Assembly (NCBI GenBank): GCA_011390065.1
Contig: JAABTD010000016.1
Coordinates: 1 to 37,345 of the forward strand
Direction: 5' to 3'
Source of the DNA: Desulfobacteraceae bacterium
GTDB taxonomy: Bacteria > Desulfobacterota > Desulfobacteria > Desulfobacterales > JAABSP01
Length of the DNA: 37,345 bases
Part shown: piece by piece, positions 2,751 through 34,292 of the stretch
How positions within the stretch are numbered: the first letter of the stretch is position 1
Layout: the number at the start of each line of letters is the position of its first letter
Program-made: the position numbers and the translations under genes
The notes under the pieces: generated by a model
What the model was told of the DNA's origin: nothing
Databases searched by the model: none
Seen by the model: only the letters and a program-made list of their open reading frames with translations

Positions 2751-3941
2751 ATGGAAACACCAGACGCCCAAAGGGCTCAACGAAATATCACTCGGCTTCA
2801 GGTCGATAACCGGGAAGTGGTGATGGTGGGCACCGCCCACGTCTCCAGGGAAAGCGCCGAACTGGTCCGATCCGTCATCGAGGCGGAAGCGCCGGACACC
2901 GTCTGCATTGAACTATGCCCATCGCGTTACGGGGCCATCCGGCAGCAGGATCAATGGCAGGACATGGACATCATCAAGGTGATCAAGGAGAAAAAGGCGT
3001 TCCTGCTGCTCTCCAACCTTCTGCTGGCCGCCTTTCAACGGCGCATCGCCAAAAAACTGGGGGTCAAGCCGGGAGAAGAGATGATCCGGGCCATGGAAGC
3101 GGCCGACGAGATCGGGGCTCATATCCATCTGGCGGACCGGGACATCCGGATCACGCTCCTCCGCACCTGGCGCTCCATGGGGCTGTGGGGAAAAATCAAG
3201 CTCTTGTTCCAGTTGATTTATTCCGCCGCCGGCGGCATCGACGACATCAGCGAAGCGGACATCGAACGGATGAAGCAGGAGGACATCCTGCAGATGCTGC
3301 TGGCGGACGTGGAAAAATCTTTCCCGTCTCTCAAGACCATCCTCATCGATGAACGGGACCGGTACCTGGCCCATCGCATCCGCACCGCTCCCGGCGAAAA
3401 AATCGTGGCAGTGGTGGGGGCCGGCCATGTGCCGGGCATCACCCGCCACTGGGAGGAAGAGATCGACATGGCCGCACTGGAGACCGTCCCCCCTAAGGGG
3501 CGGCTGGGGGGATGGCTGAAATGGATCATCCCTCTGGCCATTGTCAGCCTTTTCGCCTTCGGATTTTTTTACGGCGGCCGAGAAACAGGCGCCCGGATGA
3601 TCACCTGGTGGGTGGCGGCCAACGGCATACTGGCCGGCCTCGGGGCCATCGCGGCCCTGGGGCACCCCTTGACCATCCTTTCCTCGGTGGTTGCAGCGCC
3701 CCTGACGTCCCTCAACCCTATGATCGCCGCGGGCTGGGTCTCCGGACTGGTGGAAGCTTTCTCGCGAAAACCCAAGGTCCGGGATTTTGAAACCCTTTAT
3801 GAAGACATTCTTTCGGTTCGGGGATTCTGGCGCAACAAGGTGACGCGGATTCTGCTGGTGGTGGTGTTCACCAACCTGGGAAGCGGGGTGGGATCGTTTG
3901 TGGCGGTGCCGCTCATGCTGAAAGTTTTCGGAGGCGTTTAG
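2751..3941 (+). CDS. TraB/GumN (PrgY) family membrane protein
   Basis: The 396-aa protein has the TraB-family motifs GTAHVS (residues 27-32), IELCPSRYG (53-61) and GAGHVPG (223-229). A C-terminal membrane part follows, with hydrophobic segments at about 257-275, 286-304, 307-332 and 366-388. The fold is related to the Tiki/EreA-like metal-dependent peptidase group; the best-known member, enterococcal PrgY/TraB, limits pheromone activity, but chromosomal bacterial and archaeal members have no settled function. The ATG at 2751 is chosen because AAGGAA precedes it by about 12 nt; an in-frame ATG at 2649 lies inside the divergent gene and adds sequence unlike the family. Its stop overlaps the convergent glgB stop by 4 nt. 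Confidence 0.88.
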   Translation: METPDAQRAQRNITRLQVDNREVVMVGTAHVSRESAELVRSVIEAEAPDTVCIELCPSRYGAIRQQDQWQDMDIIKVIKEKKAFLLLSNLLLAAFQRRIAKKLGVKPGEEMIRAMEAADEIGAHIHLADRDIRITLLRTWRSMGLWGKIKLLFQLIYSAAGGIDDISEADIERMKQEDILQMLLADVEKSFPSLKTILIDERDRYLAHRIRTAPGEKIVAVVGAGHVPGITRHWEEEIDMAALETVPPKGRLGGWLKWIIPLAIVSLFAFGFFYGGRETGARMITWWVAANGILAGLGAIAALGHPLTILSSVVAAPLTSLNPMIAAGWVSGLVEAFSRKPKVRDFETLYEDILSVRGFWRNKVTRILLVVVFTNLGSGVGSFVAVPLMLKVFGGV

Positions 3942-7499: not shown

Positions 7500-7505
7500 T
7501 ATTGG

Positions 7506-7511
7506 CTCCTT
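7506..7511 (-). promoter_or_regulatory. Shine-Dalgarno site that fixes the glgA GTG start
   Basis: The minus strand reads AAGGAG, then 6 nt, then GTG at 7499. This is near-perfect spacing and makes the GTG, not the ATG three codons downstream, the likely initiator. Confidence 0.75.
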
Positions 7512-7518
7512 TTTAGCA

Positions 7519-10062: not shown

Positions 10063-10118
10063 TTTACATTCCTGATTGTGTTCCAACGATGGTTTAACCA
10101 ACAGAAAAATCTAAAACT

Positions 10119-17679: not shown

Positions 17680-17811
17680 TCGGTTCCTCCTTGGGTTGCC
17701 GGCTTCCCCTGCCGGAACATCTGTTGCGGCGCCGGCGGTGGGCCGGCGCCTTCGCGGGCGGGAAAACCTCACTGTTGAAGGTTTTTTATGGGTAATATGC
17801 ATATTGATGAC
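17680..17811 (-). promoter_or_regulatory. Leader of giant gene 1, with conserved element and hairpins
   Basis: The 132-nt gap between the giant genes is non-coding. A 35-nt element at 17758-17792 matches the leader of giant gene 2 without gaps at about 26 positions and lies 79 nt from the start codon, against 80 nt there. A perfect 9-bp hairpin (arms 17728-17736 and 17742-17750, 5-nt loop) follows. A 5-bp hairpin, CCGGC/GCCGG, sits just before the ribosome site. A perfect 12-bp palindrome AATATGCATATT at 17794-17805 could be an operator. No clear promoter or T-tract terminator is seen, so read-through from giant gene 2 is possible. Confidence 0.5.
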
Positions 17812-20800
17812 TTATTGCGACCCGGCTTTTCTCAGCGCGTTCAGCGCCTCGGCAAAGCCGATCCGACCGTCGCCATCGATGTCGGCGCCGACAAAGCAAT
17901 TCATCGGTTCGATCCCCGCCAGCACCTGGAGCGCCGTTACGGCATCGCCGATGCCCACCACTCCGTCGCCGTCTGCATCGCCCGGCAAAACGCCTTCCAT
18001 ATGGATGGTAAAGGTTGTTTCCGCGTGGTTTTTCTCTTCGCCGCTGTCGGGGTTCACCACGCCGCTGTTGTCCGTCACCCTGACCGCAACCTGAAGGGTT
18101 CTCTGGTCGTCGGAGACCACCTTTGGAAACACCTTCAGGCTCCGGTTTCTACCGAAATCAGGCGAGAATTCAAAATCCGCGACCGAAGGATCAGCCGTCG
18201 CCGTCAACTTCAACGCATCCGGCCCCTCATCGATGTCGTCCACTGTGAAGAACACTTCAACGGGCTCATTGAGGCGGGCATTCTGATCCGGAATCGCTGA
18301 AATTTCCGGCGCGTCATTCCGATTGTGGATGGTGACGCTCAGTTCCGCGTCAACGCCGAAGAAATCGTTGCTCACCCTCACCACCAACGGCACGGTGTAC
18401 TGCTCCTGGTCAAAAGGCGCATTCTCCGCCGGCCGGAAGGTCATTCGCCAGTTGACGCTGTCTCCGGGGCCGCTGCCGGGAATCGGAGCGACGCTGATCA
18501 AACTGTTGGGGATATAACGCACATCACCCGAAAAAACGAATACATCCAGGTCCGCCGGCGCTTTTGTTTCATCCCAGACCCAGAAATTCACCAGGGTATC
18601 TTCAGATGCATCCTCCCAGATGTCAACCGCGGACCTGATGTTGATCTGGGGCGGGGTCACATCCGGAACGACCCGGAGGGTAAAGGTGAACTCCGATTGA
18701 GCGTCGCCGTCACCGGCTCTGATCGCAACCGGAACGTCCACCGGCTCCGAACCGCCCGACGGCAGCGGTTTCATCTTCAGCCAATGGGTCATATTGTCCT
18801 GGGGATCAATGATCCGGTCCCAGTCAAAGCGCGAGCTGTCCGTCTGAGGGAGCAGCGCATTATTGCCCGATGCAGCCGAAACGATCACCTGATGAAGCGG
18901 GGTGTCCACATCCCGGACCTCGAAATGAAGCACATATTCTTCATCCCATTGGGCGTAAACGATGTTGTTCGGATCGGCGATGGGCGCGTTGATGATGGGC
19001 GGATTGTTGATGGGTCTGACCCAAAGCTGGAAAGGCTGCGATTTGACGGGCGCCGCTTCGGGGCTGTCCTTCACCCAGGGGGTAATCCTGGCATAGCCGC
19101 TGTCGTAGTCATCCGGCGCAACAATCACCGTTCGCACCGATCCGGTTCCCTCGAACCGGATTTCGCCCTCGACAAAATCGTCTTCCCTTCCGGACACGGG
19201 CGCCCAGGCAGCCCCCATGATCAGTTCGTCCAGCGGCGTATCCAGATCATCGACCTCCACCACATAGCCCATGTTCTCGGTCGTCCCGCCTTCGTCGATG
19301 ACGATCTGAGACACATGGTCGGGCGAGCCCTCCTGCATGAGCGTCGAGATGGTGGGCGGATGCGGGACCGGAGCCACCCTCAAGGTAAAGGTCAGCGGAT
19401 CGCTTTCCAATTGTTGCTCGGTCGATGCATCCACCACGCTGACCGTGACGGTTGCCGCGCCGGCTGTGTTCTGCGCCGGGTTCATCACCAGTCGACGGAC
19501 GGCGTCGGTATAGTCGGGATGGTAAAAATAGCTGCCTTGCGGCAGCAGTTCGGGGTTTTCCCCGGCAATGACCGGCGCCGTGATCACCAGCGTTGCCGGA
19601 CGGCATTGAGGGTCGCTTGAAACAACGAAATCCACATAATGCTGCCCGGAATTTTCCTGAATTTCTTCAACATACAGGCCGTTTTGCTTCGTTATGAGCG
19701 GCGGATGATCCTGGGCCAGGTATTCGATCGTCACCTGGTCGGAACCCTTTTGGGGATCCGCGTCATCCTTATCCCATACCGTCGCCTTGATGGTTGCCAG
19801 GGCGCCGCTTCTCGAACACATCACAGGGGGGGTAAAGCGCAAGGTTCTTTCCGCGCCCGTGCCGATCTCCAGAAGATGGTCTCTGTTGTCGAGGATCGTC
19901 TTTTTGGCGTCCTCGAGCCATTCGACGACATACGTCGGTTCAAGCGCCTCGCTGGCCGTTTCCACGTCGCTGACCGTGAAATTCAGGTCAATGATCGTCT
20001 TTTCATCAACAGGCGCCTGGGGCGGATTGGTGAATTCCAGATGGGGAGGATTGTTGACGAACTCGATTCTCACATCGAAACCGGCTGAAACCGTATTCGT
20101 CCCATCCGTCACCTGAAGGCTGACGGCGCCGAGGCCATAACCGTTTTGCGTCGGGGTGATGATGATATATTTCCCATGCTCGACCAACTCCAGCCCGACC
20201 GGCGCCGTCGGGGTCGTCGTCTCCTTCCAGGCCCATCTCAGGGACCCCGAAACGACCTGCAGGCCGGCTTCCAGGGTGTCCGGATCCTCGATCACATAGG
20301 ACACGGTGACCGGGTCATTTTCCTGGGTAACGATGGGCGGGTTTTCGACGCGGAAGCTCGGCGGATCATCCACCTCCTGAACCACCAGCGGAACTTCCAG
20401 CGCGTCTTCAAGAAAACCGTCGTCTCTGGCCGTGATGATGAGGGTCGCTTCGCCGAAAGATTGGGAGGCGCCTTTTACCGTCAGCGTACATTGCTTTTTA
20501 TAGTCGTTTTCCGGGTCGTTCGGGGCCGGCTGGCAGCTCGTGGACAGATCGAGGGTCAAGCCGGTGGTTCCCGGATCGTAACCGGTTTCAACCGTCACGT
20601 TATTGATCAGGGTATCCACATCCTCGACCTGAAAATCCAGGGCATAGGTTCCCCCTTCCCGGATCGTGGACGGCTCTTCCGGCAACGGCCGCACCGGCGT
20701 GATCCGGGGCGGACTCGGCACGTCTTCGATCACCAGGGAAAGGATGACGGGTTCTTCGGACCGGGTCCCGTCCGGTTCCTGCACGGCCACAACGATTTCA

Positions 20801-23800
20801 GCCGTCGCGGTCTTATCCGTTCCCCTCGGCCAGTCGGCGGGTGGAAGGATGGTCAGGACCGCAAATCCGTCGCTGTCGATCAGTCCTCCCGAAAAGGTCC
20901 CATTGGGCATATCCGGGGGACTGATGGAACGCCATTCTTTCAACAACCTCAATGTGCTCAGGTCCTCCGTTTCGATGTCGCTGATCCTCAGTTCCACGTC
21001 GATGGGCTGGCCTTCTTTTGCACTGCGCTCAAGGAGGCCGGGTACGGGGTCGGTTTGGATCACCGGGGGATAATTGACCGCTTCAATGTTGATGGTCGCA
21101 TCCTGACTATATTGCGATTCACCGTCGCTGACCGTAATGGTCAGGGGCAAGGCGCCCGAAACCAGATCCGGCGGCCTGACCACAAGGTCGACCCGGCCGT
21201 CGTCGGACACCGGTGGACTCGGCGGCGTGAAGGCGCCGGTCGGATCGATGCCGCCGCCCCACCCGGCCGTCACCTTCAGACTTCCCGGAGGGTCGTGGGG
21301 GTCGGGATCATCCACATAAAACCGGATGGTTTTCTGTTCGTCCTGCAGCCACGGGGGCTCCGGCTGACAGCCGATGCACGGATAGGCCGGTTCCAATCCG
21401 ATGAAAGTCGGAAGATCGTTTACCGGCGAGATGTCGGCTTTGATGATTTGGGAAGTGGAGAGCGAAGAAGCGACATCCTCTATAATAAGGTTGAACTCCT
21501 CCACCGTTGTCGTTTCGATTACATTCGGCCTGGGAAACAAAACAAGGCCCAGAGAAAGGGTTTCACCCGGCTGACTGGTCTCTGAAATGCTGAGGGAATT
21601 GGTGATGCGGCCGGCGCTGTCGATGAAATAGACATGTTGAGCGTCAAGAGGAATGGCGCGTCCGCTGCCGTCGTCGCCTTCGGGCAATTCCACCCGGATG
21701 GTCATCTCCCGCTCGCCATCCGGATGGCGGATTTCCAGGACTGCCGGATCGCCTTCCGCTGTTTCCCTGTTTCGATCATCTTCCATGCGTTTCAGAGAGG
21801 GCGGTTGCAAGACCGGAGAATCTGCCACGGGATTGACCGTGAAATTGAGCGTTTTGGCATCGGTTTCGGCGGCGTCCGCGACCGATGCTTCGATGACGCC
21901 GGCCCCGAAGAGTTCCGTATTGGCATCGGACGTCGGCTGGATGAACAACTTGACCGTACTGCGGTAGTCGTCGGCTGCGGCCGGCGTCAGGATATAGGGT
22001 TCCGTGGCGCCGTACCATCCGGGATCAGCCGGGTTTTCAGGGCATGACGGGTCGTCGACCGTTCCCGTCTCTTCGCAGATTTTCAGGTTCTTAAACGCAT
22101 TGGGAACAAGTTCCGCGTTAAGAGATGCTATCGTCAATGTGAGCTGATCTCCATCGACATCCCGCAAGACAAGATCCACGATCCTGCTTTGATCTTCATC
22201 CATTGCAAACGGCGCCGGAACGGTCAGCTCGGGCGGGTCATTGACCGGATCGACCGTCATATTGAAGGTTCTTCGGGTGGGAAGCCCGTATATGTCGGTG
22301 ATCCTGATGGCGATTCTCGAAGTCCCGAAATCATTGAGCGTCGGCTTGATCCGGATCTGACAGTCGCCTCCCGTGCATTCCCAGCAATTCACGTCGTCTT
22401 CATCCGCGCAGCCGGGAAATGGATAAATCCCCGCGCCGTCTTCCGTCAAATCCAGGAATTCATTGCTATTGGCCGAGATCGCTTTTTCAAGCCTGCCATA
22501 ATCATTAACCGATTCAATCGAATCGTCTCCAATGACAAAGCGATATACCTGCGCATCGCTGTCTTCATCGATGACGACGCCGTCAAAAAAGGTTTCGCCC
22601 GTCTCCGGTTCGATGGTAGGGGGCGTATTGTAAGTCAGAAAAAACGACTGCTGATCGCCTTCGGTTCCGGGATCGCCGTCGGAAACGGTGATGGTGATCC
22701 GGGCGTCCAGGCTGGTGTCCGCAGACGCCGTCGGTTCATCGATGGACAATGTGCACTCATAAAAGGGCGGATTCTCATTGTTTTCGAAACAATTAAACAG
22801 CTCCAGACCGGATGCCCAGGTTCTGGTAGAACTGACCGGTTTGGTGATGTCATCGATGGCGTCGTCGCCGTCGGAGATCCCTATGGTCATGGACTTTACC
22901 CCATCTCCGAAATTCATGGCGACCGTTCTGTCCGCAAGATCCAAATCCAGGAGATTCTCAGTGGACCCCTGTTCCCATATTCCTGTAATAACCGTATCGG
23001 TGCTGTGGACCACTTTTAGGGTAAACTGGAAAGGCGTCTTTGCGCTATATTCGTCGCTCACGGAGAGGCTCAGCGCGATCTCACCGACGGCGCCGGCTTT
23101 AAGAGGGATCTCAAGGACCCTGTTGTTGTCGGTTGATTCGACAGGTTTCACACCGGGTTCTGCGGACATAATGCCGCCGGCGTCTGTATAACTTTCCACC
23201 AACACTTGCAGCTCAGAGGCCGGGGTCTCGACATCATGAACCGAAAACGGCACGTTCAGGATATAAGCGGCATCCTGTTTAATTTCCGTCCTTGTCGTGG
23301 GAAAATCTTCAACCCAGGGAAAACTGTTGATCGTGACAAGAAAGGTTTCATTTACTATGATGCCGTCAAACGTCGTGGCGGAGATGGTGATCTGCGCCCT
23401 GCCGAACGCTTGTTCATTCGGCATGATTTCAAGACGGTATTCCTTGAATGCTTCAGTGCTCTGCACAAGAGACAGTTTCAGATTGGCGTCGGGAATCACC
23501 GCCTCATTGGATGAGGTTACATCCAGATTCTGCATGGATTCCGGGGAATCCACCCTGAATTTGACGACAATCGGATCTGCCGGTTGCCCTTCGAGAATCT
23601 CATCGATGATATACGGCGCAGGGGTTTCCTCCGAAATATCGATTCCGGGAATATCGGCCACGGTCAAGCGGAAGGCGGCGGCATCGCTTTTGGGGCATGT
23701 TGCGGGATCCATGTTCGCGGTGCACTGGTCCTCAACGGTGACCGTGAAATCCGCCGTGCCTTTGGTGGTTGAAAGTGATTCAATGATAAGGACGGCGGGG

Positions 23801-25254
23801 TCCGCATCGGAAAACCTGAAAGAGATATCGACGCCTTCCGTCAGGTTATCACTGGTCATTTCCGCACGGGTCGTCAGTTCGTTGTCCGGAGTTTCCAAAT
23901 CCGAGATCACCAGGTTCAGTGGAGTGGCGTCTTCTATTCTCAAGACCTGATCGTCTATGGCATAAATTTTTGGGGGGACATTCGGTTGATTATCATCGTC
24001 CGGCGCGCTCACCTCTTGATCATCGATAAAAGCGGCGCCCCTGCTGCTGTTCCTGGCGGGCATGCCGCCAATGAACTCGTAAACGCCTCCGGCGGCCGAT
24101 ATATCGACCTCGCTGACCGAACCATTCCCGTCGGCAGGCCCAAAAGGCGTGTTAACGTCGTCGCGTTCCCAGTTTCCGGCGCCGGATTTTCGATAAATGA
24201 AAGCCGGTCCGTCTTCCGTGCCCACCGCTGCATAATTACCCTTAATGGCGACGGATGTTCCGAAGCCGAGCACGCCCGGTTCCTGAAGTTCATCCGTGAC
24301 GGTCCACTGGCCGCCGTCATAGTGAAAAATGTACGCCTTCCCGGTCCCCGTCGATATGCCCGGAGCGCCGGCGATGATAAAGTCGCCGTCTATGGCCGCC
24401 GACATGCCGAGCTTATCCTCACTTTGAAACACAAAGTTGTGGGGGTTGACCGCGCCATTGGGGAGTTTGACATGGGGTTCCCAGGAACCGTCCCCGCTTC
24501 TTTGAAAGACATACAGGGCTCCGGCCCTGTTCCCGTTTTGATCGTCCCCGTAAGCGCCTGCTGCGGCGAACTCATCCGAGACCGCCACCGATGCGCCGAA
24601 ATAATCGTGAATCGCGCGGACAGGCGCCATAATTCGCGTCGCATCTTCTTCGATCAGCACATCCGACCACCCTGTCGACGGCCGTTCATAGATGTAAGCC
24701 GCGCCCGCATCTCCGTATGCCCCGGGCGCCCCCACGATCACATATCGGCTCGACGCCCCTACCGACGATCCGTAATAGGTGTTGGCATTGGGGTCATAGG
24801 CCGTCAAGTCCGCTGCCTGCCGCCATACGCCCGATCCATCCAATTCGAATATGTACGCGGCGCCGGCGTTACTGATCAACTTACTGGTCGGATCTCTTGG
24901 AAAGGGGTCTATATCCGTGCCATCGGCCCCGACCACGGCCATATCGCCGAACATATCAACCGCTCTTCCAAAATAGTCGTTTGCACTGAAACGCAACGGC
25001 GTAAAATAAGATTGCGCCGCAGGGCCCCAGGTCGTCCCGTCGTTTCTGAAAACGTAGACTTTGCCGGCGAAGCTGTCGTCTCCGTAAGCGCCGACCATGG
25101 CCCACTCTCCGAAAACCGCCACCGACGAACCGAAATTATCGTCTGCATCGAGCAGGGTTTGAGGCTGGATCTGCGCTGCATTCACATAAGGGATCGCCGT
25201 CAGAAGAAGCAGAGCAGTAATGAACGTGGCTGTGAATCGTTTTCTAAATTTCAT
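17812..25254 (-). CDS. Giant secreted protein 2: FG-GAP-like propeller, 17 Ig/cadherin-like modules, dockerin-like C-terminus
   Basis: This 2480-aa tandem paralogue of the next gene starts at the ATG at 25254 behind AAGGAG; residues 1-26 form a signal peptide. Propeller repeats (DNFGSSVAVFGEWAMVGAYG and relatives) occupy about 33-420, the seventh being degenerate. Seventeen Ig/cadherin-like modules follow in the same order as in the paralogue. The C-terminal modules are far closer to the paralogue (for example PTIS, SQIVIDEGGTT, GYARITPWVKDS, NPPIINAPIA, MTHWLKMKPLP) than modules 1-4, which are hardly alignable by eye. It ends in two EF-hand loops, DADGDGVVG and DIDGDGRIG, plus a conserved ALQVLAGIEPMN stretch. 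An extracellular adhesive or structural role is inferred. The long leader upstream carries the most striking RNA-structure potential in the window. Confidence 0.9.
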   Translation of the reverse strand: MKFRKRFTATFITALLLLTAIPYVNAAQIQPQTLLDADDNFGSSVAVFGEWAMVGAYGDDSFAGKVYVFRNDGTTWGPAAQSYFTPLRFSANDYFGRAVDMFGDMAVVGADGTDIDPFPRDPTSKLISNAGAAYIFELDGSGVWRQAADLTAYDPNANTYYGSSVGASSRYVIVGAPGAYGDAGAAYIYERPSTGWSDVLIEEDATRIMAPVRAIHDYFGASVAVSDEFAAAGAYGDDQNGNRAGALYVFQRSGDGSWEPHVKLPNGAVNPHNFVFQSEDKLGMSAAIDGDFIIAGAPGISTGTGKAYIFHYDGGQWTVTDELQEPGVLGFGTSVAIKGNYAAVGTEDGPAFIYRKSGAGNWERDDVNTPFGPADGNGSVSEVDISAAGGVYEFIGGMPARNSSRGAAFIDDQEVSAPDDDNQPNVPPKIYAIDDQVLRIEDATPLNLVISDLETPDNELTTRAEMTSDNLTEGVDISFRFSDADPAVLIIESLSTTKGTADFTVTVEDQCTANMDPATCPKSDAAAFRLTVADIPGIDISEETPAPYIIDEILEGQPADPIVVKFRVDSPESMQNLDVTSSNEAVIPDANLKLSLVQSTEAFKEYRLEIMPNEQAFGRAQITISATTFDGIIVNETFLVTINSFPWVEDFPTTRTEIKQDAAYILNVPFSVHDVETPASELQVLVESYTDAGGIMSAEPGVKPVESTDNNRVLEIPLKAGAVGEIALSLSVSDEYSAKTPFQFTLKVVHSTDTVITGIWEQGSTENLLDLDLADRTVAMNFGDGVKSMTIGISDGDDAIDDITKPVSSTRTWASGLELFNCFENNENPPFYECTLSIDEPTASADTSLDARITITVSDGDPGTEGDQQSFFLTYNTPPTIEPETGETFFDGVVIDEDSDAQVYRFVIGDDSIESVNDYGRLEKAISANSNEFLDLTEDGAGIYPFPGCADEDDVNCWECTGGDCQIRIKPTLNDFGTSRIAIRITDIYGLPTRRTFNMTVDPVNDPPELTVPAPFAMDEDQSRIVDLVLRDVDGDQLTLTIASLNAELVPNAFKNLKICEETGTVDDPSCPENPADPGWYGATEPYILTPAAADDYRSTVKLFIQPTSDANTELFGAGVIEASVADAAETDAKTLNFTVNPVADSPVLQPPSLKRMEDDRNRETAEGDPAVLEIRHPDGEREMTIRVELPEGDDGSGRAIPLDAQHVYFIDSAGRITNSLSISETSQPGETLSLGLVLFPRPNVIETTTVEEFNLIIEDVASSLSTSQIIKADISPVNDLPTFIGLEPAYPCIGCQPEPPWLQDEQKTIRFYVDDPDPHDPPGSLKVTAGWGGGIDPTGAFTPPSPPVSDDGRVDLVVRPPDLVSGALPLTITVSDGESQYSQDATINIEAVNYPPVIQTDPVPGLLERSAKEGQPIDVELRISDIETEDLSTLRLLKEWRSISPPDMPNGTFSGGLIDSDGFAVLTILPPADWPRGTDKTATAEIVVAVQEPDGTRSEEPVILSLVIEDVPSPPRITPVRPLPEEPSTIREGGTYALDFQVEDVDTLINNVTVETGYDPGTTGLTLDLSTSCQPAPNDPENDYKKQCTLTVKGASQSFGEATLIITARDDGFLEDALEVPLVVQEVDDPPSFRVENPPIVTQENDPVTVSYVIEDPDTLEAGLQVVSGSLRWAWKETTTPTAPVGLELVEHGKYIIITPTQNGYGLGAVSLQVTDGTNTVSAGFDVRIEFVNNPPHLEFTNPPQAPVDEKTIIDLNFTVSDVETASEALEPTYVVEWLEDAKKTILDNRDHLLEIGTGAERTLRFTPPVMCSRSGALATIKATVWDKDDADPQKGSDQVTIEYLAQDHPPLITKQNGLYVEEIQENSGQHYVDFVVSSDPQCRPATLVITAPVIAGENPELLPQGSYFYHPDYTDAVRRLVMNPAQNTAGAATVTVSVVDASTEQQLESDPLTFTLRVAPVPHPPTISTLMQEGSPDHVSQIVIDEGGTTENMGYVVEVDDLDTPLDELIMGAAWAPVSGREDDFVEGEIRFEGTGSVRTVIVAPDDYDSGYARITPWVKDSPEAAPVKSQPFQLWVRPINNPPIINAPIADPNNIVYAQWDEEYVLHFEVRDVDTPLHQVIVSAASGNNALLPQTDSSRFDWDRIIDPQDNMTHWLKMKPLPSGGSEPVDVPVAIRAGDGDAQSEFTFTLRVVPDVTPPQINIRSAVDIWEDASEDTLVNFWVWDETKAPADLDVFVFSGDVRYIPNSLISVAPIPGSGPGDSVNWRMTFRPAENAPFDQEQYTVPLVVRVSNDFFGVDAELSVTIHNRNDAPEISAIPDQNARLNEPVEVFFTVDDIDEGPDALKLTATADPSVADFEFSPDFGRNRSLKVFPKVVSDDQRTLQVAVRVTDNSGVVNPDSGEEKNHAETTFTIHMEGVLPGDADGDGVVGIGDAVTALQVLAGIEPMNCFVGADIDGDGRIGFAEALNALRKAGSQ

Positions 25255-25377
25255 TGGGTTTCTCCTTGAATCCTTGACCCCCTCCTCCGATATTGCCTGT
25301 CCCAAGGTATGACCTTGCCGACGCCGCCGGGGGGCGGGAACGTCTCACTGCTGTAAGTTTTTTTGCGGGGGACAGGC
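25255..25377 (-). promoter_or_regulatory. Structured leader of giant gene 2 (riboswitch-like fold, no known class recognised)
   Basis: On the minus strand, GCCTGTCCC (25377-25369) can pair perfectly with GGGACAGGC (25303-25295), closing a region of about 65 nt. Inside are AAGGT/ACCTT with a 3-nt loop (25304-25316), a CCGCC/GGCGG hairpin, and the 35-nt element (25334-25368) shared with the leader of giant gene 1. The start codon follows about 40 nt after the outer stem. I compared it by eye with the cyclic di-GMP, TPP, ZTP, fluoride and guanidine consensus cores and recognised none. Confidence 0.45.
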
Positions 25378-26524: not shown

Positions 26525-26571
26525 AGAAGAAGTCGATCTCAATCATCTTCGAAACAAGGATGACAGACACC

Positions 26572-27042
26572 ATGACGCTGGCCGAACGCCTCCATGAGGA
26601 ACATATTTTTCTGAATGTCGCGCTGCCGGACAAACCGGCCGTGCTGCGGTTTGCCGCCGACGCCTTCGCCAAAAGCGGCATCACGGCGGACGCCGACCGG
26701 CTTCTGGAAGAGTTGCAGTCCCGGGAAATGGTGATGAGCACGGGGATCGGAAACGGTCTCGCCATTCCCCACGCCTTCAGCGACCATGTCGACACCCAGA
26801 GCGTCCTCCTGATCCGACTCGCCCGCCCCATTCCCTTTGCCGCCATCGATCAACGACCCGTCGACCTGGTGCTGGCGCTGGCAGCCCCGGAATCCGACAC
26901 ATCGCTGCACCTGCAGATGCTCGCCCGGATTTCCAGAGTCTTCCGCGATGCGGATGCGTTGCGCGCCATCCGATCCGCCCAATCCCCCGAAACCCTTCTA
27001 TCCGCCGTTCGCCGGGCCGAAGAGCGGATCTCCCCCCGTTGA
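26572..27042 (+). CDS. PTS EIIA-Ntr (PtsN)-like regulatory protein
   Basis: The 156-aa protein has the PTS EIIA type 2 (mannitol/fructose/Ntr) fold signature, with the phosphorylatable His67 in GLAIPH. EIIA-Ntr proteins do not transport sugar; in other bacteria they control potassium transporters and sensor kinases according to phosphorylation state. I chose the ATG at 26572 because AAGGA lies 11 nt upstream; the ATG at 26560 overlaps that site and would add only four residues. It is the first of a two-gene unit with the PII-like gene, which begins inside its stop codon. The pair converges on an operon ending in two antiporter genes, which suggests those antiporters as targets. That link is inference. 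Confidence 0.88.
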   Translation: MTLAERLHEEHIFLNVALPDKPAVLRFAADAFAKSGITADADRLLEELQSREMVMSTGIGNGLAIPHAFSDHVDTQSVLLIRLARPIPFAAIDQRPVDLVLALAAPESDTSLHLQMLARISRVFRDADALRAIRSAQSPETLLSAVRRAEERISPR

Positions 27043-27491
27043 ATAACGCCGTCAACACCTGCGAAGCGCATCTGCTGATCGCCGTCATCAACGACGAGAG
27101 CCTTCTGGAGGAGATCATCACCGGCTGGCTTGACATGGGCATCACCGGCGCCACCGTCTTCGAGAGCACCGATCTGCTGCAGCTCATCAGCCGCCACATC
27201 CCCATCTTCGCCGGATTCCGATCCATGACCACCGGCGGCGGATATCATAATAAAACCATTTTTACCGCTATCGAAAAACAGACTCTGCTGGAAAACGCAG
27301 TAACGCATCTGGAAGCCACCTGCCGCAAGACCGGAATATCAAGCCAGGGCGTCTATTTCGTGGTCCCCCTCACGGCCTTCGGCCGGCTGGGCCTCGATAT
27401 GTCGGCCGAGCATTACCAGCGCCATATCGAAAAAAAACTGGGCCGGCCTATCCCCGGCCCTCCTCCCCCACCCGATGAAGCGCCATCTTGA
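27039..27491 (+). CDS. PII-like (GlnB-fold) small regulatory protein
   Basis: The 150-aa protein resembles small members of the PII superfamily. It opens AHLLIAVINDESLLEEI, followed by GITGATVFEST, IPIFAGFR, NKTIF and a VYFVVPL strand, matching the beta-alpha-beta repeats of the ferredoxin-like PII fold. PII-like proteins bind nucleotides and often control a neighbouring transporter. The start is a TTG at 27039 that overlaps the EIIA-Ntr-like stop (TTGA), so translation is probably coupled; no better start exists before the conserved region. The last 14 codons, a Pro-rich tail (GPPPPPDEAPS), lie in the 44-nt convergent overlap with the antiporter gene and are probably not part of the fold. 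The classical uridylylation loop Tyr is not evident. Confidence 0.75.
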   Translation: MNNAVNTCEAHLLIAVINDESLLEEIITGWLDMGITGATVFESTDLLQLISRHIPIFAGFRSMTTGGGYHNKTIFTAIEKQTLLENAVTHLEATCRKTGISSQGVYFVVPLTAFGRLGLDMSAEHYQRHIEKKLGRPIPGPPPPPDEAPS

Positions 27492-28806
27492 AAGCGATGG
27501 GTCCCACCATCTGGTTGAGACAGATCACCGCCAGCACCACCGTCGTCAAATAGGTTCCTATGACCGGAAATTCCCGCATGGCCAACTTCGCCAGGCCGAT
27601 GGCCACCCCGGCCTGGGTCAGATAGGCCATCCAGGCGGTCTGGTTGTATTGCGGCGGATCTCCGGACAAGGCGCCCGCGGCCCAGGCGGCCAGCCAGATG
27701 GCGACCGCCCTGATGACGGCCAGACAAAGCGCCAGAGGCCAGGTCAGGGCCAGAGCGGCCAAGTCCAGCGAGGCCCCCGCCAGGGAAAAAAACAAGACAA
27801 AAACAGGCAGCGACACCCGATCGAGAGCGGCCGTGAAGGCGGCCCCGCCCTGCCCCAGATTCCGAACGGAAAATCCCGCGCTCATGCAGATAATCAGCGG
27901 TTCCAGATGGAGCGATCCCCCAAAATGGCTTTCCGTGAATTGCCCCAGCCAATGGGACGCCCTGGCGACGCCGAATGCGAAAAACAACAGGAAAAACGGC
28001 AGGTCATATCCCGCCCTCCGGATATACTGATCGATCAATTTCCCCGACAACAACCCGGCGATGATGGAAACGGCGATTTCCCCGGCCAGGGCCCCGAAGA
28101 CCGCGAATTCCATTCGCCCCTCCGGCGTCAGCGCCGCCTGGACGACCGCCATGGCCAGGGTGAACAAGATAATGATAAGGACATCCATGGCGACGGTGAC
28201 GCCCAGCACGGTATCGGTGAACCTTCCCCGGGCCCGGCACTCGCTGATGATGGCGATGGCTGAAGAAGGGGACCGGGCCACCGCCGCCACGCCCAGCAGC
28301 ACCGCCAGCGATGCCGTCTGAAGCGACGACAGATCTTTCGTAAAGCTGAACCGATCCCCGAAAACCGTCCCAAAACCGGCGATCATGCTGAACACGATCA
28401 CGACCTGAAAGGCGACGTTGTAGATGATGACCCGGCGCCGCCCGGCCAGGGCGCTCAGGCCGAAATGGGCCCCGGCTGAAAGGGCAATGAAACTCAGGGC
28501 CAGATCATCCAGCAGCCGCAGCTGCCCGACCATGGACGGCGAAAGGAAACCCAAAACATGCGGGCCGGCCAGGATGCCGGCGATGATATAGCCTGACAGC
28601 AGGGGCAGCCCGACGGCGCCGGCCAGTTGTCCGCTCACGTAAGCGCCCAGCAGCAGCGCGCCCAGGAAAAAATTGGTCCGGGCTGCGGCGCCATGGGCCG
28701 GATCCGCATCCCATCCGCGCATATACGCTGCAAAAGCGCCGATGAAAACCAGGATCATCAGATGAACGGCGACGGTTGCGGCTTGCCGGCGATGATCAGA
28801 CTTCAT
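27448..28806 (-). CDS. CPA-type cation:proton antiporter (Kef/NhaP-like membrane domain)
   Basis: The 452-aa protein is almost entirely hydrophobic, with about 12-13 membrane segments. GYIIAGILAGPHVLGF (72-87) is the typical start of CPA2/Kef-family transporters. ARSPSSAIAIISE (177-189) corresponds to the unwound helix, and VAMDVLIII carries the ion-binding Asp208, preceded by Met where CPA transporters often have Asn or Asp. There is no C-terminal TrkA-N/RCK domain, so it is not a full KefB/KefC. It exchanges Na+ or K+ for H+ by family inference. It is the last gene of the CO dehydrogenase operon, overlapping the previous gene by 11 nt, and it ends 44 nt inside the convergent PII-like gene. 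Ion specificity cannot be read from the sequence. Confidence 0.85.
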   Translation of the reverse strand: MKSDHRRQAATVAVHLMILVFIGAFAAYMRGWDADPAHGAAARTNFFLGALLLGAYVSGQLAGAVGLPLLSGYIIAGILAGPHVLGFLSPSMVGQLRLLDDLALSFIALSAGAHFGLSALAGRRRVIIYNVAFQVVIVFSMIAGFGTVFGDRFSFTKDLSSLQTASLAVLLGVAAVARSPSSAIAIISECRARGRFTDTVLGVTVAMDVLIIILFTLAMAVVQAALTPEGRMEFAVFGALAGEIAVSIIAGLLSGKLIDQYIRRAGYDLPFFLLFFAFGVARASHWLGQFTESHFGGSLHLEPLIICMSAGFSVRNLGQGGAAFTAALDRVSLPVFVLFFSLAGASLDLAALALTWPLALCLAVIRAVAIWLAAWAAGALSGDPPQYNQTAWMAYLTQAGVAIGLAKLAMREFPVIGTYLTTVVLAVICLNQMVGPIAFKMALHRVGEEGRG

Positions 28807-29998
28807 GGCGCTTTTCCCCGATCACCCTCTTCAGAAGCCAGGGGCTGATCCCGTCGCTGAGCACCAGGGCGGCCAGGATGGCCCCGACGACCGTCATGGC
28901 CGCATCCCCGGTAAACCGTTTTGAAAAATCCAGAAGAAAGGCCATGCACAGACCGCTTGGCCCCAGAAGGCCCAGCCCCAGATGAGCCGGATAGCGACGG
29001 AGGCCGGGCGCAAGCCGGGTGATGATCAGCAGCGAGAGCCATTTGCCGATCGCCCGCCAGATGCCGTAAAGAACCCCGACGCCCCATACCACCGGATCAT
29101 CCACCCGCCAGGCGGCCCCTAAAAAGACCAGCAGCAGCAGATACGCCGGCTTTTCAACCGGCGCCAGAATCCGGTAGATCCGTTCCTTGTCCCGGGAAAC
29201 ATTGACCAGGCAGATGCCCACCAAAATATTGGCCAACAGCGGAGAAAACCCCGCCGCCGTCGAGAGACCGCTGGCCAGAAGGACCATGCCCGCCACTACC
29301 AAAATCAGTTCAGGTTCCGGAATCCGCCGGCTTAAAAACAGGAGAAACAACAACAGAATGCCGAGGCAGGCGCCCAGGACGCCCATTGCGCCATGGAACG
29401 TCCCGGCGATCGCCGTCGATGCATCCGGCTTGAAAACATAGGCAAGGCCGAAAATCGCCAGCGCCCCCAGGCCGTCAAGGCTCGAAATATATCGGAGCAA
29501 CGCCAGCCGGCGAGGATGGCGTCCCTTCATCGATGCGGCCATGAGGGCCAGGCCCGTCTGTCCGGAGGGTGCGGCGGCGGCCGCCATTAAAAAGGAAAGC
29601 GTGAGTCCCATGGCGGCGTATCCGGGCAGAAACCGCGGCATTGCCGTCATGGCCGCACCCCAAACAGCCAGCAGAATAAAGATCCCCTGGAAATGGGCCG
29701 CCGCCGCATATTCCAGGGGATAGGTTCGCAGTTTCCGGAATTCAAATTGAAAGCCGTAGAGAAAACCGATCCACCCCAGAACAACGGCCTGCAGCGGCGC
29801 CAGGCCCATCCGCGTGGGCGCGTCCAGCAAATTCAGAAAATCGGACCCCAGAAGCAGCCCGATGAACAGAAACTCCGTTCCGGTCAGGTAAAACTGACGC
29901 ACCAACAGGGGGAGCCGGAGCCGGAAGCCCCGGAACGTGAAATGATAACCGGTAAAGGCAAGGAAAACCACCAGGAGAAAGGCGAAAACGGATTTCAT
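28796..29998 (-). CDS. Second antiporter-like membrane protein (divergent CPA family)
   Basis: The 400-aa integral membrane protein has 11-13 hydrophobic segments. An ATG at 29998 begins MKSVFAFLLVVFLAF; the frame extends further up inside cooS but that part is not membrane-like. It looks like a divergent relative of the following antiporter: AAPSGQTGLALMAAS (141-155) occupies the place of the ATSP helix, and SSLDGLGALAIFGL retains one Asp (175) where the ion-binding acid is expected. No cytoplasmic domain is present. There is no good ribosome site directly upstream; translation may be coupled through a 9-codon reading frame that begins inside the cooS stop and ends inside this ATG. Transport activity is inferred from fold resemblance. 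Confidence 0.75.
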   Translation of the reverse strand: MKSVFAFLLVVFLAFTGYHFTFRGFRLRLPLLVRQFYLTGTEFLFIGLLLGSDFLNLLDAPTRMGLAPLQAVVLGWIGFLYGFQFEFRKLRTYPLEYAAAAHFQGIFILLAVWGAAMTAMPRFLPGYAAMGLTLSFLMAAAAAPSGQTGLALMAASMKGRHPRRLALLRYISSLDGLGALAIFGLAYVFKPDASTAIAGTFHGAMGVLGACLGILLLFLLFLSRRIPEPELILVVAGMVLLASGLSTAAGFSPLLANILVGICLVNVSRDKERIYRILAPVEKPAYLLLLVFLGAAWRVDDPVVWGVGVLYGIWRAIGKWLSLLIITRLAPGLRRYPAHLGLGLLGPSGLCMAFLLDFSKRFTGDAAMTVVGAILAALVLSDGISPWLLKRVIGEKRHEV

Positions 29999-30021
29999 GG
30001 CTTTCCCGACCCGCGCGCCAT
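29995..30021 (-). other. Possible coupling mini-ORF between cooS and the antiporter gene
   Basis: AAAGGAGG (30033-30026) lies 4 nt before an ATG (30021-30019) that overlaps the cooS stop as TGATG. This frame encodes only MARGSGKP and ends in a TGA that overlaps the antiporter start as ATGA. The strong ribosome site therefore serves this mini-frame rather than the antiporter ATG, which has none of its own. Translational coupling is the likely role; an error in the sequence that splits a longer start is the alternative. Confidence 0.4.
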
Positions 30022-31901
30022 CACACCTCCTTTGCGTCCAGCCCCAGCCTCTTCCGCTTCTCTTCGACATGTCGCCGAATCAGCACTGCCGCTTTTTCCG
30101 GATCAGGCTCCACGGCAAAGGCGGCGCCCACGGCGTCGTTCAAGCCCTCGGTGAGGAGTTTCACCACGTTCATGGATCCGGTGATGGGCGGCATGGGCCC
30201 CAGCACCGTGTAGACCCCGGAAGCCACGAAATAGCAGCCGATGGCCGCGGCCTTTTCGGAGTACCATTCAGGGGCCGCGCCGGCCATGGGCAGATCGCTG
30301 ATGTCGGTCCCCAGGGCGTCGGCCAGGGCCGAGGCCAGGACCAGGATCCGGACGTTGTCCACACAGGAGCCCATGTGGAGGACCGGCGGGATCTTGAGGG
30401 CGCCGCAGATCTCCTTAAGTCCCGGTCCGGCGTACTTTATGGCGTCGGCGACCTTGAACCCCGCCTTGGCGGTGGCCACTGCCGCGCAGCCGGTGTCCAC
30501 CACCAGGATATCGTTTTCGATCAAGCGCCGGGTCAGGGTCACATGACCGTAATCATGCTTGATCCGCGGGTTGTTGCACCCCACCACGCCGGCCGCGCCC
30601 CGGATCTTCCCCGCCTTTATGGCGTCCAGCAGCGGTTCCGGCGTACCGCCCAGGGCGCCCACGATGGCCTCCACGGAAAAGCCGCCGAGGGCCGCCACCG
30701 GCGTCACCGGCAGATAGACCTCGCCGCGCAGGTCGTAATTTTCCACCGCCTCCCGGACAATGGTCCGGGCCAGTTCCCGGGCGTTGTCCGGATGGAATTC
30801 CCGGTGCTCCATGCCCGGAAACCGGGCCTTGTCGGAAGTGGAGATCATTCGGGTGTGGTAACAACTGGCGGTCTGGCCCAGCGAGGGCATGATGCACTGG
30901 TAATCGACGATCATCATCTCCACCGCGCCGGTGGCCAGCACCAGTTCGGTGGTCAGGTGGTTGCCGGCCATGGGGATCCCGTGGCGCATGAGCAGCTCGT
31001 TGCCGGTGCAGCACAGCCCCGCCAGATTGATGCCGGCCGCGCCCTTTTCTCTGGCCAGCGCAATCAAATCTTCGGACTGGCAGGCCAGCATCACCATCTC
31101 CGACACCACCGGATTATGGCCGTGGACCACGATGTTGACCTGATCCTCCTCGAGCACTCCCATGTTGGCGCTGGTGGGCGTGGGCTTGGGCGTGCCGTAG
31201 AGAATGTCCGACACCTCCGTGGCGATCATCGAGCCGCCCCACCCGTCGGACAGGGCGTTTCGCAGGGCGTGGAGGAGCAGGCTCTGCCAGCCGTTGTCCA
31301 CCCCCATGTGGGTCCGGTGCATCATCTCCGATGTCTCCCGGTCGATGCCCCGGGGGGTGATGCCCAGTTTTTTCCAGACCTCCCGGCGCTTTTCCGGGGC
31401 CCGCCGGACCAGGGTCAGTTCGGATTTCCGGGTCCCGTAGTCCGCCTGCATGGCGGCCGCCAGGTCGCCGGCCACGGCCAGGGCGTCCCGGCCGTCGGTT
31501 GCCACGCCGTATTCCGTTGCCATGGACATCAGTTTGTCCGCATCCCGTATCCCATACCCGTCCGCCTTGCCTTCGGCCACCGCGGCCAGCACCTCCACCA
31601 GATCCCGGCCGTGGTCGGAATGGGCTGCAGCCCCGGCGGCGATCATCCGGCCCAGGTTCCGGGCCACGATAATGTCGGCATCGGCGCCGCACACGCCCCG
31701 TTGGGGCCCTTCGCCAAAGGGATCGATCCGGCACGGCCCCATGACGCAGATGCGGCAACTCAACCCCATCTCGCAATAACCGCACTGGGGCTGCTGATGC
31801 TCGAACCGGTCCCATACCGTCTCCACGCCGTCCCGGTCCGCCTTCTTCAAGAGAAGGCGGCTGTCCTGGGCAATGCTCCGCTCCTCATAACGCTTATCCA
31901 T
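30021..31901 (-). CDS. cooS: Ni-Fe carbon monoxide dehydrogenase catalytic subunit
   Basis: The 626-aa enzyme interconverts CO and CO2 and is of full monofunctional length. C-cluster ligands are recognisable: His262 (HGHNPVVSE), Cys298 (GLCCTGNE), Cys336 (DYQCIMPS), Cys442 (VGCNNPR), Cys472 (DTGCAAV) and Cys513 (HMGSCVDNVR), with Lys550 at the place of the catalytic lysine and His94/His97 in the proton-relay region. B-cluster cysteines are Cys49, 52, 57 and 71. For the D-cluster there is Cys40-x2-Cys43, and the usual second cysteine (position 48) is Ser, the pattern known from Desulfovibrio vulgaris, where D is [2Fe-2S]. AGGAGG lies 5 nt before the ATG. There are no acetyl-CoA synthase genes nearby. 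It is the third gene of FNOR - CooF-like - cooS - two antiporters. Confidence 0.96.
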   Translation of the reverse strand: MDKRYEERSIAQDSRLLLKKADRDGVETVWDRFEHQQPQCGYCEMGLSCRICVMGPCRIDPFGEGPQRGVCGADADIIVARNLGRMIAAGAAAHSDHGRDLVEVLAAVAEGKADGYGIRDADKLMSMATEYGVATDGRDALAVAGDLAAAMQADYGTRKSELTLVRRAPEKRREVWKKLGITPRGIDRETSEMMHRTHMGVDNGWQSLLLHALRNALSDGWGGSMIATEVSDILYGTPKPTPTSANMGVLEEDQVNIVVHGHNPVVSEMVMLACQSEDLIALAREKGAAGINLAGLCCTGNELLMRHGIPMAGNHLTTELVLATGAVEMMIVDYQCIMPSLGQTASCYHTRMISTSDKARFPGMEHREFHPDNARELARTIVREAVENYDLRGEVYLPVTPVAALGGFSVEAIVGALGGTPEPLLDAIKAGKIRGAAGVVGCNNPRIKHDYGHVTLTRRLIENDILVVDTGCAAVATAKAGFKVADAIKYAGPGLKEICGALKIPPVLHMGSCVDNVRILVLASALADALGTDISDLPMAGAAPEWYSEKAAAIGCYFVASGVYTVLGPMPPITGSMNVVKLLTEGLNDAVGAAFAVEPDPEKAAVLIRRHVEEKRKRLGLDAKEV

Positions 31902-31960
31902 AACGACCTCCTATGCCGATTCCCCCTTTTCAATAGGGGGGTCAGGGGCGTTTGCCCCGT
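31902..31960. repeat. Short inverted-repeat spacer between the CooF-like gene and cooS
   Basis: The 59-nt gap holds two small hairpins: CCCCC/GGGGG flanking TTTTCAATA near 31922-31940, and GGGGC-GTTT-GCCCC at 31945-31958. It resembles the C-run/G-run intergenic repeats common in deltaproteobacterial genomes. There is no T-tract, so it is not a terminator in either direction; it may affect mRNA stability between the two genes. Confidence 0.45.
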
Positions 31961-32566
31961 TCACCGTCCCGAAGCCCGCAGTTCCGCTTCGACTTTTTTA
32001 ACCGCCTTCAAAAGCTCGAATCCGGGCGACGAAGGGGCCGCCCCGACATCCGACGAAACGGTGCGCGCCACCTGGTCGGTCTTCCGCTTCATGGCGACTG
32101 AGATCTCCTCGAAAGCAAGGGCGCCGGATTTGCAAATTTCCACGCAGGCGGGAATGCGCCCCTCGGCCTGACGATCGATGCAGTTGTCGCACTTGACCGC
32201 AACCACCTTTTCCGGGGGCCCCAGGGGGTCGGCATGATACCGGATCACTCCGAAAGGACAGGCCATGGCGCAGGAAGCGCAGTTGATGCACCGGTCCGGG
32301 TCGATGAGCACCGTGCCGGTATCGGGGTCCCGGGAGATGGCCCCCGGCAGACAGGCCATCCGGCAGGGGGCCGGGTCGCAGTGGCGGCATCGATTGGGAA
32401 ACCCCTCGTTGCAAAGCCCTGCTCCCACATGAACCCGCGGCCTCGGCAGGGGCCGTTCGTGGATGGCCGAAAAAAGTGATTTCGACCGGGAGTGGGCGGT
32501 GGCGCACGCGGCCATGCACTGCATGCATCCCACGCACCGCTCCGGATGGACCACAACGGTTTTCAT
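31961..32566 (-). CDS. cooF: CooF-like 4x[4Fe-4S] ferredoxin-type electron-transfer subunit
   Basis: The 201-aa protein has 16 cysteines in four cluster sets: 11/14/17/21, 60/63/68/72, 93/96/99/103 and 126/129/141/145, the arrangement of the CooF/HycB/DmsB group. It should carry electrons between CO dehydrogenase and the flavoprotein encoded upstream. There is no signal peptide, so it is cytoplasmic. The ATG at 32566 follows AAAGGAGG by 5 nt; an in-frame GTG two codons up touches that site and is unlikely. An extra Cys52 sits before the second set. The last 40 residues (charged, Ala/Ser-rich) have no cluster ligands. It lies between the FNOR and cooS genes. Without cooS next door it could equally be called a DmsB-like subunit. 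Confidence 0.9.
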   Translation of the reverse strand: MKTVVVHPERCVGCMQCMAACATAHSRSKSLFSAIHERPLPRPRVHVGAGLCNEGFPNRCRHCDPAPCRMACLPGAISRDPDTGTVLIDPDRCINCASCAMACPFGVIRYHADPLGPPEKVVAVKCDNCIDRQAEGRIPACVEICKSGALAFEEISVAMKRKTDQVARTVSSDVGAAPSSPGFELLKAVKKVEAELRASGR

Positions 32567-32604
32567 AGACACCTCCTTTTGTTATCCATTCCGCTCCCCC
32601 CGTC

Positions 32605-33843
32605 CTATCCGGCCCGGGGGAGCAGCGTTGACCAGTTGAAAGAGGGCGCCGCCAATCGTTCCCTGGGGACGACCACCGGAGTTTCGCTTCGAATGAGCGA
32701 CAACATCACGCCGCCCTGCTCGACGGCGTTGACCAGGACAAACCCCGCCAACCTGTCTTCGCGGAACACGAGTTTCCGGTATCGCTTCCGCTTCGGGTCG
32801 TGGAAATGGATCACATCGTAAACCGAATCCGTCTCCGGGGTCACGACGCCCCCGGACATGACGTCCATGTCGAAAATCCGGATGACATTGCGGCTCAGGC
32901 TCCCCGGATAGGCCACGGCCCGACCGGCCATGTTCATACCGGCGATCCGCCCCTGATCCACGGCTTCAGGCCAGATGGCGTTGACCCATCGGGACCTCCG
33001 GGCGATGTCCGTGGATTCGGCGGCATCGCCGGCGGCGTAAATGCCCTTTGCGCCGGTTTCCTGATGCGCGTCCACCAGGACCCCCAGGTCGACGCCGATT
33101 TTGTCCCGGGGCACGAAAGAAAGCGCCGGCAGCACCCCCTTGCCGATAACCGCCATGTCGCAGGAAAGGGTCGTCCCATCGGCGAGGACGGCCCGCTCCA
33201 CCCGGCCCCGGCCCTCGAAGGCCGTCACTGACGCGCCCACCCGAACGTCGAGCCCCCGACCCATCAGGTTCTCGCGAACCAGTTCCCCGGCGGCCGCGTC
33301 CACCTGCATGGAGAGGGGGTGGCCCGACCGGATCAGCATGGTCGTCGCAATGCCCCGCCGCATAAGACCGTAGGCCGCCTTGAACCCCACCAGGCCGCCG
33401 CCCAGGACCAGCGCCTTTTGCACTTTGGGCAGGGCCGTCAGCATGGACCGGACATGGCCTTCCGTGCGCATGTAGAAGATATTTTTGAGATCCAGCCCTT
33501 CGGCCTTGATGGGGCGGGGATCGGCGCCGGAGGCGATGAGCAGCTTGTCAAAAGGAACGGTTTCGCCGTTGGCAATCTTTACCGTCCGGTTGTCCACGTC
33601 GATGTCCTCGACCCGGGATCCCAGAATCGGCGCGATGCCCAGATCGTCATAGAAGCGATCGTTGCGGATGGGCAGGGCGTCCGGTGTGACGGCGCCCTCC
33701 AGCACCAGACTGATCATGGGACGGCAGTAAGGGGGGAACAGTTCGTCTCCGATGAGGGTGATCTCCCCATCCGGATCGATCCGGCGGATGGCCTCGGCCG
33801 CGTGGACGCCCGCGACGCCGTTGCCGATAATCACATACGACAT
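32605..33843 (-). CDS. FAD/NAD(P)-dependent oxidoreductase (FNOR) of the CODH cluster
   Basis: The 412-aa flavoprotein has an N-terminal FAD-binding Rossmann motif GNGVAG (7-12), a second dinucleotide motif GGGLVG (148-153) for NAD(P)H, and the FAD-contact motif YAAGDAAES (269-277). It belongs to the NADH oxidase/nitrite reductase/rubredoxin reductase superfamily. CO dehydrogenase clusters of the CooS-CooF-FNOR type are known from Geobacter and other anaerobes and are thought to link CO oxidation to NAD(P)+ reduction. AAGGAGG lies 5 nt before the ATG at 33843; the frame is open 51 codons further up but that part is AT-rich intergenic sequence. It is the first gene of the five-gene operon. An active-site Cys40 at the position used by NADH oxidases/CoA-disulfide reductases is present (PPYCRPM) and may be redox-active. 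Confidence 0.9.
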   Translation of the reverse strand: MSYVIIGNGVAGVHAAEAIRRIDPDGEITLIGDELFPPYCRPMISLVLEGAVTPDALPIRNDRFYDDLGIAPILGSRVEDIDVDNRTVKIANGETVPFDKLLIASGADPRPIKAEGLDLKNIFYMRTEGHVRSMLTALPKVQKALVLGGGLVGFKAAYGLMRRGIATTMLIRSGHPLSMQVDAAAGELVRENLMGRGLDVRVGASVTAFEGRGRVERAVLADGTTLSCDMAVIGKGVLPALSFVPRDKIGVDLGVLVDAHQETGAKGIYAAGDAAESTDIARRSRWVNAIWPEAVDQGRIAGMNMAGRAVAYPGSLSRNVIRIFDMDVMSGGVVTPETDSVYDVIHFHDPKRKRYRKLVFREDRLAGFVLVNAVEQGGVMLSLIRSETPVVVPRERLAAPSFNWSTLLPRAG

Positions 33844-34049: not shown

Positions 34050-34292
34050 ATGCAAACCCTGAAACTTCATATTTACAAACCGGGAAAAGCCGATGCGGAG
34101 ACCAAGATCTCCATCCCCCTGTCGGTCCTCCATATCTCGGAAAAACTCCTGCCCAGACGGGTCAAGGAAACCCTGGAAAAGGAGGGGATAGACCTGAGCG
34201 AACTCGGCACGCTGTTCGCCAAACAGGGTCCCAAAGGCAAGCTTATCGAAGTGGAAACCCCCAACGAACGGCTGGTGATCCTGGTTGAATAA
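34050..34292 (+). CDS. Small conserved-looking protein, possibly SHOCT-like (DUF2089 C-terminal type)
   Basis: The 80-aa protein has AGGAG 6 nt before its ATG and so is a convincing gene. It has an N-terminal strand (LKLHIYKPG), a middle helix with LPRRVKETLEKEGIDLSEL (34-52) and a final strand region IEVETPNERLVILVE. This amphipathic 'LPxxVKExLEKEGIDLxEL...IEVE' layout recalls the SHOCT-like domain at the C-terminus of DUF2089/YvlB-type proteins. There are no membrane segments, cysteines or catalytic motifs. It is the first gene of a run with an S1-domain protein and gatB, which may hint at translation or RNA, but its function is unknown and the family call is tentative. Confidence 0.75.
   Translation: MQTLKLHIYKPGKADAETKISIPLSVLHISEKLLPRRVKETLEKEGIDLSELGTLFAKQGPKGKLIEVETPNERLVILVE

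Follow-up and report, generated by a model that had tools for sequence, protein, structure and literature searches.

Genes for CooS, CooF and FNOR form a cluster which has been described in Geobacter sulfurreducens and other organisms (PMC4703632, PMC6344411), and which is also reported from sulfate reducers like Desulfobacterium autotrophicum. The CPA antiporter YcgO (CvrA) of E. coli is regulated through PtsN/EIIANtr (PMC7349511). Furthermore, the PII-like protein SbtB binds and controls the transporter SbtA (PMC8352866, PMC10710835).

The window, a stretch of 37,345 nucleotides from a Desulfobacteraceae bacterium (assembly GCA_011390065.1, contig JAABTD010000016.1), resembles each of these systems in part. 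The same three protein types as in the CooS-CooF-FNOR cluster are encoded next to each other; however, their order is FNOR-CooF-CooS, two antiporter genes follow them in the family of the window only, and neither CooC nor a CO-sensing regulator was seen beside the trio. As with YcgO and PtsN, a CPA antiporter goes together with an EIIA of the Ntr/fructose type, but in the window the EIIA gene is a neighbour of the antiporter gene, there are also a second CPA protein and a PII-like protein, and the regulation is putative. Similar to SbtA-SbtB, a PII-like protein accompanies a secondary transporter, and SbtB is among the Foldseek matches of the window protein, whereas the transporter is of the CPA type instead of SbtA and has an EIIA as a further partner. 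The locus is likely to consist of two separate modules placed end to end, namely the CO dehydrogenase (CODH) trio, and a paired CPA antiporter controlled by the EIIA and the PII-like protein.

On the minus strand, the genes for FNOR, the CooF-like protein, CooS, antiA and antiB follow one another in this order from position 33843 to 27448 (Table 1). The Pfam and TIGR01702 matches agree with the original prediction, made from the sequence of the window, in which the first three of these genes were recognised. The 11-nt overlap between antiA and antiB (28806-28796) was also given correctly there. The EIIA and PII-like genes were absent from that prediction; they are located on the plus strand and converge on antiB, tail to tail. 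The 3' end of the PII-like gene overlaps the 3' end of antiB by 44 nt (27448-27491), an overlap that is also present in the sister genome G001. Divergent from the FNOR gene, an 80-aa protein without a Pfam match is encoded at 34050-34292 (plus strand), which also adjoins the FNOR gene in genomes G002, G003, and G116.

Table 1. Features of the CODH and antiporter locus, with positions in the window, strand and basis of the assignment.
Feature	Position	Strand	Basis and remarks
FNOR, FAD/NAD(P) oxidoreductase of the CODH trio	32605..33843	-	Pfam Pyr_redox_2 6.6e-45, Rubredoxin_C 3e-9
CooF-like 4Fe-4S electron-transfer protein	31961..32566	-	Pfam Fer4_11 8.9e-21; start ATG 32566, alternative GTG 32572
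CooS, Ni-CO dehydrogenase	30021..31901	-	TIGR01702 702 bits; Prismane E=3e-184
8-codon frame (MARGSGKP and stop) from TGATG at the cooS stop	29995..30021	-	Sequence
antiA, CPA-fold membrane protein, 400 aa	28796..29998	-	hhalign against antiB, predicted fold, orthologue starts
antiB, CPA antiporter, 452 aa	27448..28806	-	Pfam Na_H_Exchanger 3.8e-15
Terminator-like hairpin and T run, at the antiB stop	27440..27460	-	7 G-C pairs and T tract
PII-like protein, 150 aa	27039..27491	+	AF2 model and Foldseek
PTS EIIA (PTS_EIIA_2, Ntr/fructose type)	26560..27042	+	Pfam 3.8e-35

CooS matches the CODH catalytic subunit family over its full length, with a score far above the TIGR01702 cut-off of 478 bits, and its closest solved relative is PDB 6b6v (E=3.5e-237). 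In the alignment to this structure, inspected by eye, the Cys/His ligands of the metal clusters and the acid-base His and Lys are kept. The Cys pattern of the D-cluster is C-x2-C-x5-C, which corresponds to type III, with the CooS of D. vulgaris among the examples (PMC6344411). FNOR, CooF and CooS adjoin each other in the window and were rightly called a known trio before, this set being already described (PMC4703632, PMC6344411). An Ech-type hydrogenase, which a CODH/Ech ion pump includes, was not found among the genes identified in this cluster, so the absence reported earlier holds at the level of the gene cluster. Most likely, the trio functions independently, in the manner of the described CooS-CooF-FNOR unit (PMC4703632): CooS would oxidise CO, or run in reverse, CooF would carry electrons from CooS, and FNOR would exchange electrons with NAD(P). 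Three further genes for CODH catalytic subunits are present in the same genome (G000:C93, C414, and C235), 45-48% identical to the CooS of the window.

The conservation of the neighbourhoods was analysed from both sides of the locus. Among 146 relatives scanned, antiA was detected at E < 1e-40 in 27 genomes, counting that of the window, and the remaining relatives possess weak homologues or none. Loci from a phylum-wide profile search were added, and neighbourhoods were counted over thirty-nine antiA loci; many of the compared loci end at contig borders. antiB is located within 1 kb of antiA in thirty-eight out of the thirty-nine loci, the exception being L055, and an EIIA and/or PII-like gene within 8 kb in twenty-five. 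Fourteen antiporter loci showed no EIIA or PII-like gene, nine of which are within 3 kb of a contig end; the other five have long flanks with no such gene nearby (G106, G084, G137, G166, and G361). CooS was found within 8 kb of antiA in three loci, which belong to a single family (G000, G001, and G003).

On the CODH side, twenty orthologous loci were compared, with CooS 73-82% identical to that of the window. CooF is encoded beside cooS in all twenty and FNOR in seventeen, and the antiporters are downstream of CooS in none (0/20; 17 of these loci have >2 kb of downstream sequence). The genes found after the trio elsewhere are unrelated. In genome G002, of the same family as the window, the genes up to and including CooS are the same (gatB, S1, 80-aa protein, FNOR, CooF, CooS), the antiporters do not follow CooS, and there is no antiA match anywhere in the genome. 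In two single-contig genomes both parts are present and far apart, at 0.20 and 4.67 Mb in G116, and at 3.95 and 2.22 Mb in G118. Neither among the relatives nor among the phylum-wide loci was the five-gene order found outside G000, G001, and G003. A lack of CODH-antiporter adjacency in related genomes had been named in the original prediction as its refutation, and beyond the one family the adjacency is indeed lacking.

These counts bear on the central proposal of the original prediction, that the five genes form a single system tying CO or redox status to ion exchange, in which CODH activity or the NAD(P)H level would drive or signal Na+/H+ or K+/H+ exchange via antiA and antiB. A single transcript is likely in G000 and G001, with a 22-nt gap and no terminator-like site in between, and the adjacency is present in G003 as well. 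Nonetheless, 36 of the 39 antiporter loci are without CooS within 8 kb, the adjacency is limited to one family, G002 carries the trio in a genome with no antiA, and Pfam recognised no redox- or nucleotide-binding domain in antiA or antiB, which makes such a five-gene system very improbable. The antiporters of G000, G001, and G003 form one clade (SH-aLRT 97 for antiA and 99 for antiB, in quick searches with SH-aLRT support and no bootstraps). In spite of a divergence of antiA to ~51% identity, the adjacency to CODH has persisted in two genera; this could mean selection, which counts against full independence of the modules.

The junction between cooS and antiA was described in the original prediction as a 1-nt link through TGATG. 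This is rejected as the start of antiA, because the ATG at 30021 is out of frame and opens a frame of eight codons, and at 30022 the codon in the frame of antiA is GAT. The start of antiA is the ATG at 29998, which is supported by the orthologues, so the gap is 22 nt after the cooS stop. The stop of the eight-codon frame overlaps the antiA start (ATGA). The out-of-frame TGATG layout is also present in G001; an AAGGAGG-like (SD-like) sequence precedes the eight-codon ATG in the window and is not kept in G001, so that a translated mini-ORF is a possibility. In G003, cooS and antiA are separated by ~95 nt.

On the minus strand, the stretch from cooS to antiA showed no terminator-like site, and a strong candidate is located after antiB (27460-27440), which makes one transcript plausible in the genus of the window. 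Thus the shared transcript proposed before is plausible for this genus from the gap and the positions of the terminator-like sites, and the part of its argument that relied on a 1-nt link was wrong. In this family, where the CODH trio is just upstream of antiA, both may share a transcript. A further explanation would stop at this level: the antiporters would be under the CODH promoter in this lineage, and CO or redox conditions would alter their level, with no physical or energetic link to CODH. The gene spacing, the position of the terminator and the retention of the adjacency across two genera despite the divergence of antiA fit this explanation. However, the wider gap in G003 leaves room for an own antiA promoter, and the EIIA and PII-like genes stay on the opposite strand in G000, so that co-regulation as the whole account is somewhat unlikely.

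antiB matches Pfam Na_H_Exchanger with 56 bits against a cut-off of 26.2. antiA has no Pfam match even at E=10, and no NCBIfam match either. Profile comparison with hhalign relates antiA to antiB (98.8%, over 364 columns), and the AlphaFold2 model of antiA (pLDDT 86) has NapA, NhaP, SOS1, and KefC-type proteins as nearest structures in Foldseek, with E-values of 1e-6 to 1e-4 for NapA, NhaP, and KefC. antiA was assigned to the CPA type because of this profile match and the predicted fold. In agreement with the original prediction, two distinct CPA-type membrane proteins are thus encoded after CooS. For antiA, antiB, and the PII-like protein, sequence searches of the PDB gave no relatives at the chosen thresholds. 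antiA and the PII-like protein also have no Pfam or NCBIfam family, and predicted folds settled their identity.

In antiB, Asp208 is kept in 24 of 24 sequences and Arg366 is also invariant; from the fold family, Asp208 is putatively the ion-site Asp of CPA antiporters. The aligned residue of antiA, Asp175, is kept in 21 of 26 sequences, and Arg315 and Lys319 of antiA in 26 of 26. The simplest reading of these patterns is a pair in which antiB would transport and antiA would be its partner, at times degenerate. The two proteins probably work as a pair, perhaps as a heterodimer. That they belong together, as had been proposed, is borne out by their adjacency in 38/39 loci, on account of which the heteromer itself is a fair guess. 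Alternatively, antiA would be the working transporter with antiB as an accessory, or each protein would form a homodimer alone. The complete conservation of Arg315 and Lys319 and the frequent retention of Asp175 in antiA speak for this alternative, as do the antiA of L055 without antiB nearby and the single antiporter gene of Candidatus Fermentibacterota described below. It is nevertheless unlikely, given the invariant Asp208 of antiB, the Na_H_Exchanger match of antiB and not of antiA, and the near-constant adjacency of both genes.

The PII-like protein of the window has no Pfam or NCBIfam match. Its AF2 model (pLDDT 76; the loop of residues 52-66 is modelled poorly) retrieved PII, SbtB, and CutA-type entries as all of the top 50 Foldseek matches, with a probability of 1.00 and a TM-score to the target of 0.57-0.82 among these fifty. 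The PII-like orthologue in the four-gene cluster L190 scores 25.6 bits with Pfam P-II, narrowly above the cut-off of 25. A paper on a PII-like protein of Borrelia proved unrelated. Regarding the EIIA, the genome encodes EI and HPr domains which adjoin each other elsewhere (G000:C249), so the EIIA can in principle be phosphorylated.

Where the gene order of the window holds, the EIIA and PII-like genes are usually convergent on the antiporters. Two cultivable species, Desulfatibacillum alkenivorans and Desulfonema magnum, carry the module. In L188 and L190, antiA, antiB, EIIA and the PII-like gene follow one another on one strand in this order, as do antiA, antiB and EIIA in L189; these loci belong to families of the phylum other than that of the window. 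Two loci of Candidatus Fermentibacterota (L146 and L151) possess a single CPA antiporter gene (Na_H_Exchanger 1e-36), overlapped by one fusion ORF, in which an EIIA domain (5.7e-27) precedes a PII-like stretch recognised by tblastn with the window protein. These loci share with the window the combination of antiporter, EIIA, and PII-like domain; they differ in having one antiporter instead of two, and EIIA and PII-like parts that are fused and on the same strand. The association in two phyla, together with the fusion, is the strongest reason to regard the EIIA and the PII-like protein as antiporter partners. EIIA/PII-like pairs also occur without these antiporters (e.g. L126, L130, and L135). 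In L143 (689-4189), the gene upstream of an EIIA and a PII-like gene encodes a chloride channel of the ClC type that includes a CBS domain; hence, the pair may serve other ion transporters too.

The conserved EIIA and PII-like partners point to a metabolically controlled ion exchange, and not to a CO-driven ion pump, as judged from gene content and conservation. antiA and antiB with the convergent EIIA and PII-like genes would form a cation/proton antiporter module, in which the EIIA would report PTS phosphorylation (PEP supply), the PII-like protein would report a small ligand, and both would bind the antiporter and thereby gate its exchange of K+ or Na+. More specifically, and tentatively, the antiporter could be heteromeric, with a catalytic antiB and a divergent antiA jointly gated by both proteins; ion exchange in sulfate-reducing bacteria would then be set by the supply of PEP together with a second metabolite signal. 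CPA antiporters are dimeric. The PII-controlled transporters in a review are trimeric (PMC10710835), a difference which is a point against PII-like control of antiA and antiB.

In the open-access literature consulted, mostly titles and abstracts, no description of the four-gene set antiA-antiB-EIIA-PII was found. The word 'antiporter' is absent from two surveys of CODH genomic context, and no cluster of the CODH-antiporter kind is evident in the titles and abstracts of the other papers listed. The comparison corrects a tempting false lead, an antiporter driven by CO; in its place stands a conserved unit that can be tested. In two phyla, antiporters are kept with two different metabolic signalling proteins, which in one of them are fused. 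If the regulation is real, CPA antiporters would join the transporters under PII-like control, and PTS state would be linked to the ion balance of anaerobes.

Elsewhere in the window, three further groups of genes are encoded on the minus strand. Two giant ORFs of 2497 aa (17812-25305) and 2530 aa (10210-17802), which adjoin each other, contain FG-GAP_2 repeats. The first one also possesses a cadherin-like domain and, at its C-terminus, an Asp/Gly-rich repeat that is dockerin-like by eye. A glycogen-type gene group is located at 3938-10101, including a carbohydrate phosphorylase with DUF3417, a starch-synthase-like glycosyltransferase, and an alpha-amylase/CBM48 branching-type enzyme. At 1877-2662, a CbbQ/NirQ/NorQ-type AAA ATPase is encoded; the ORF beside it (3-1874) is at least 623 aa long and has no Pfam match.
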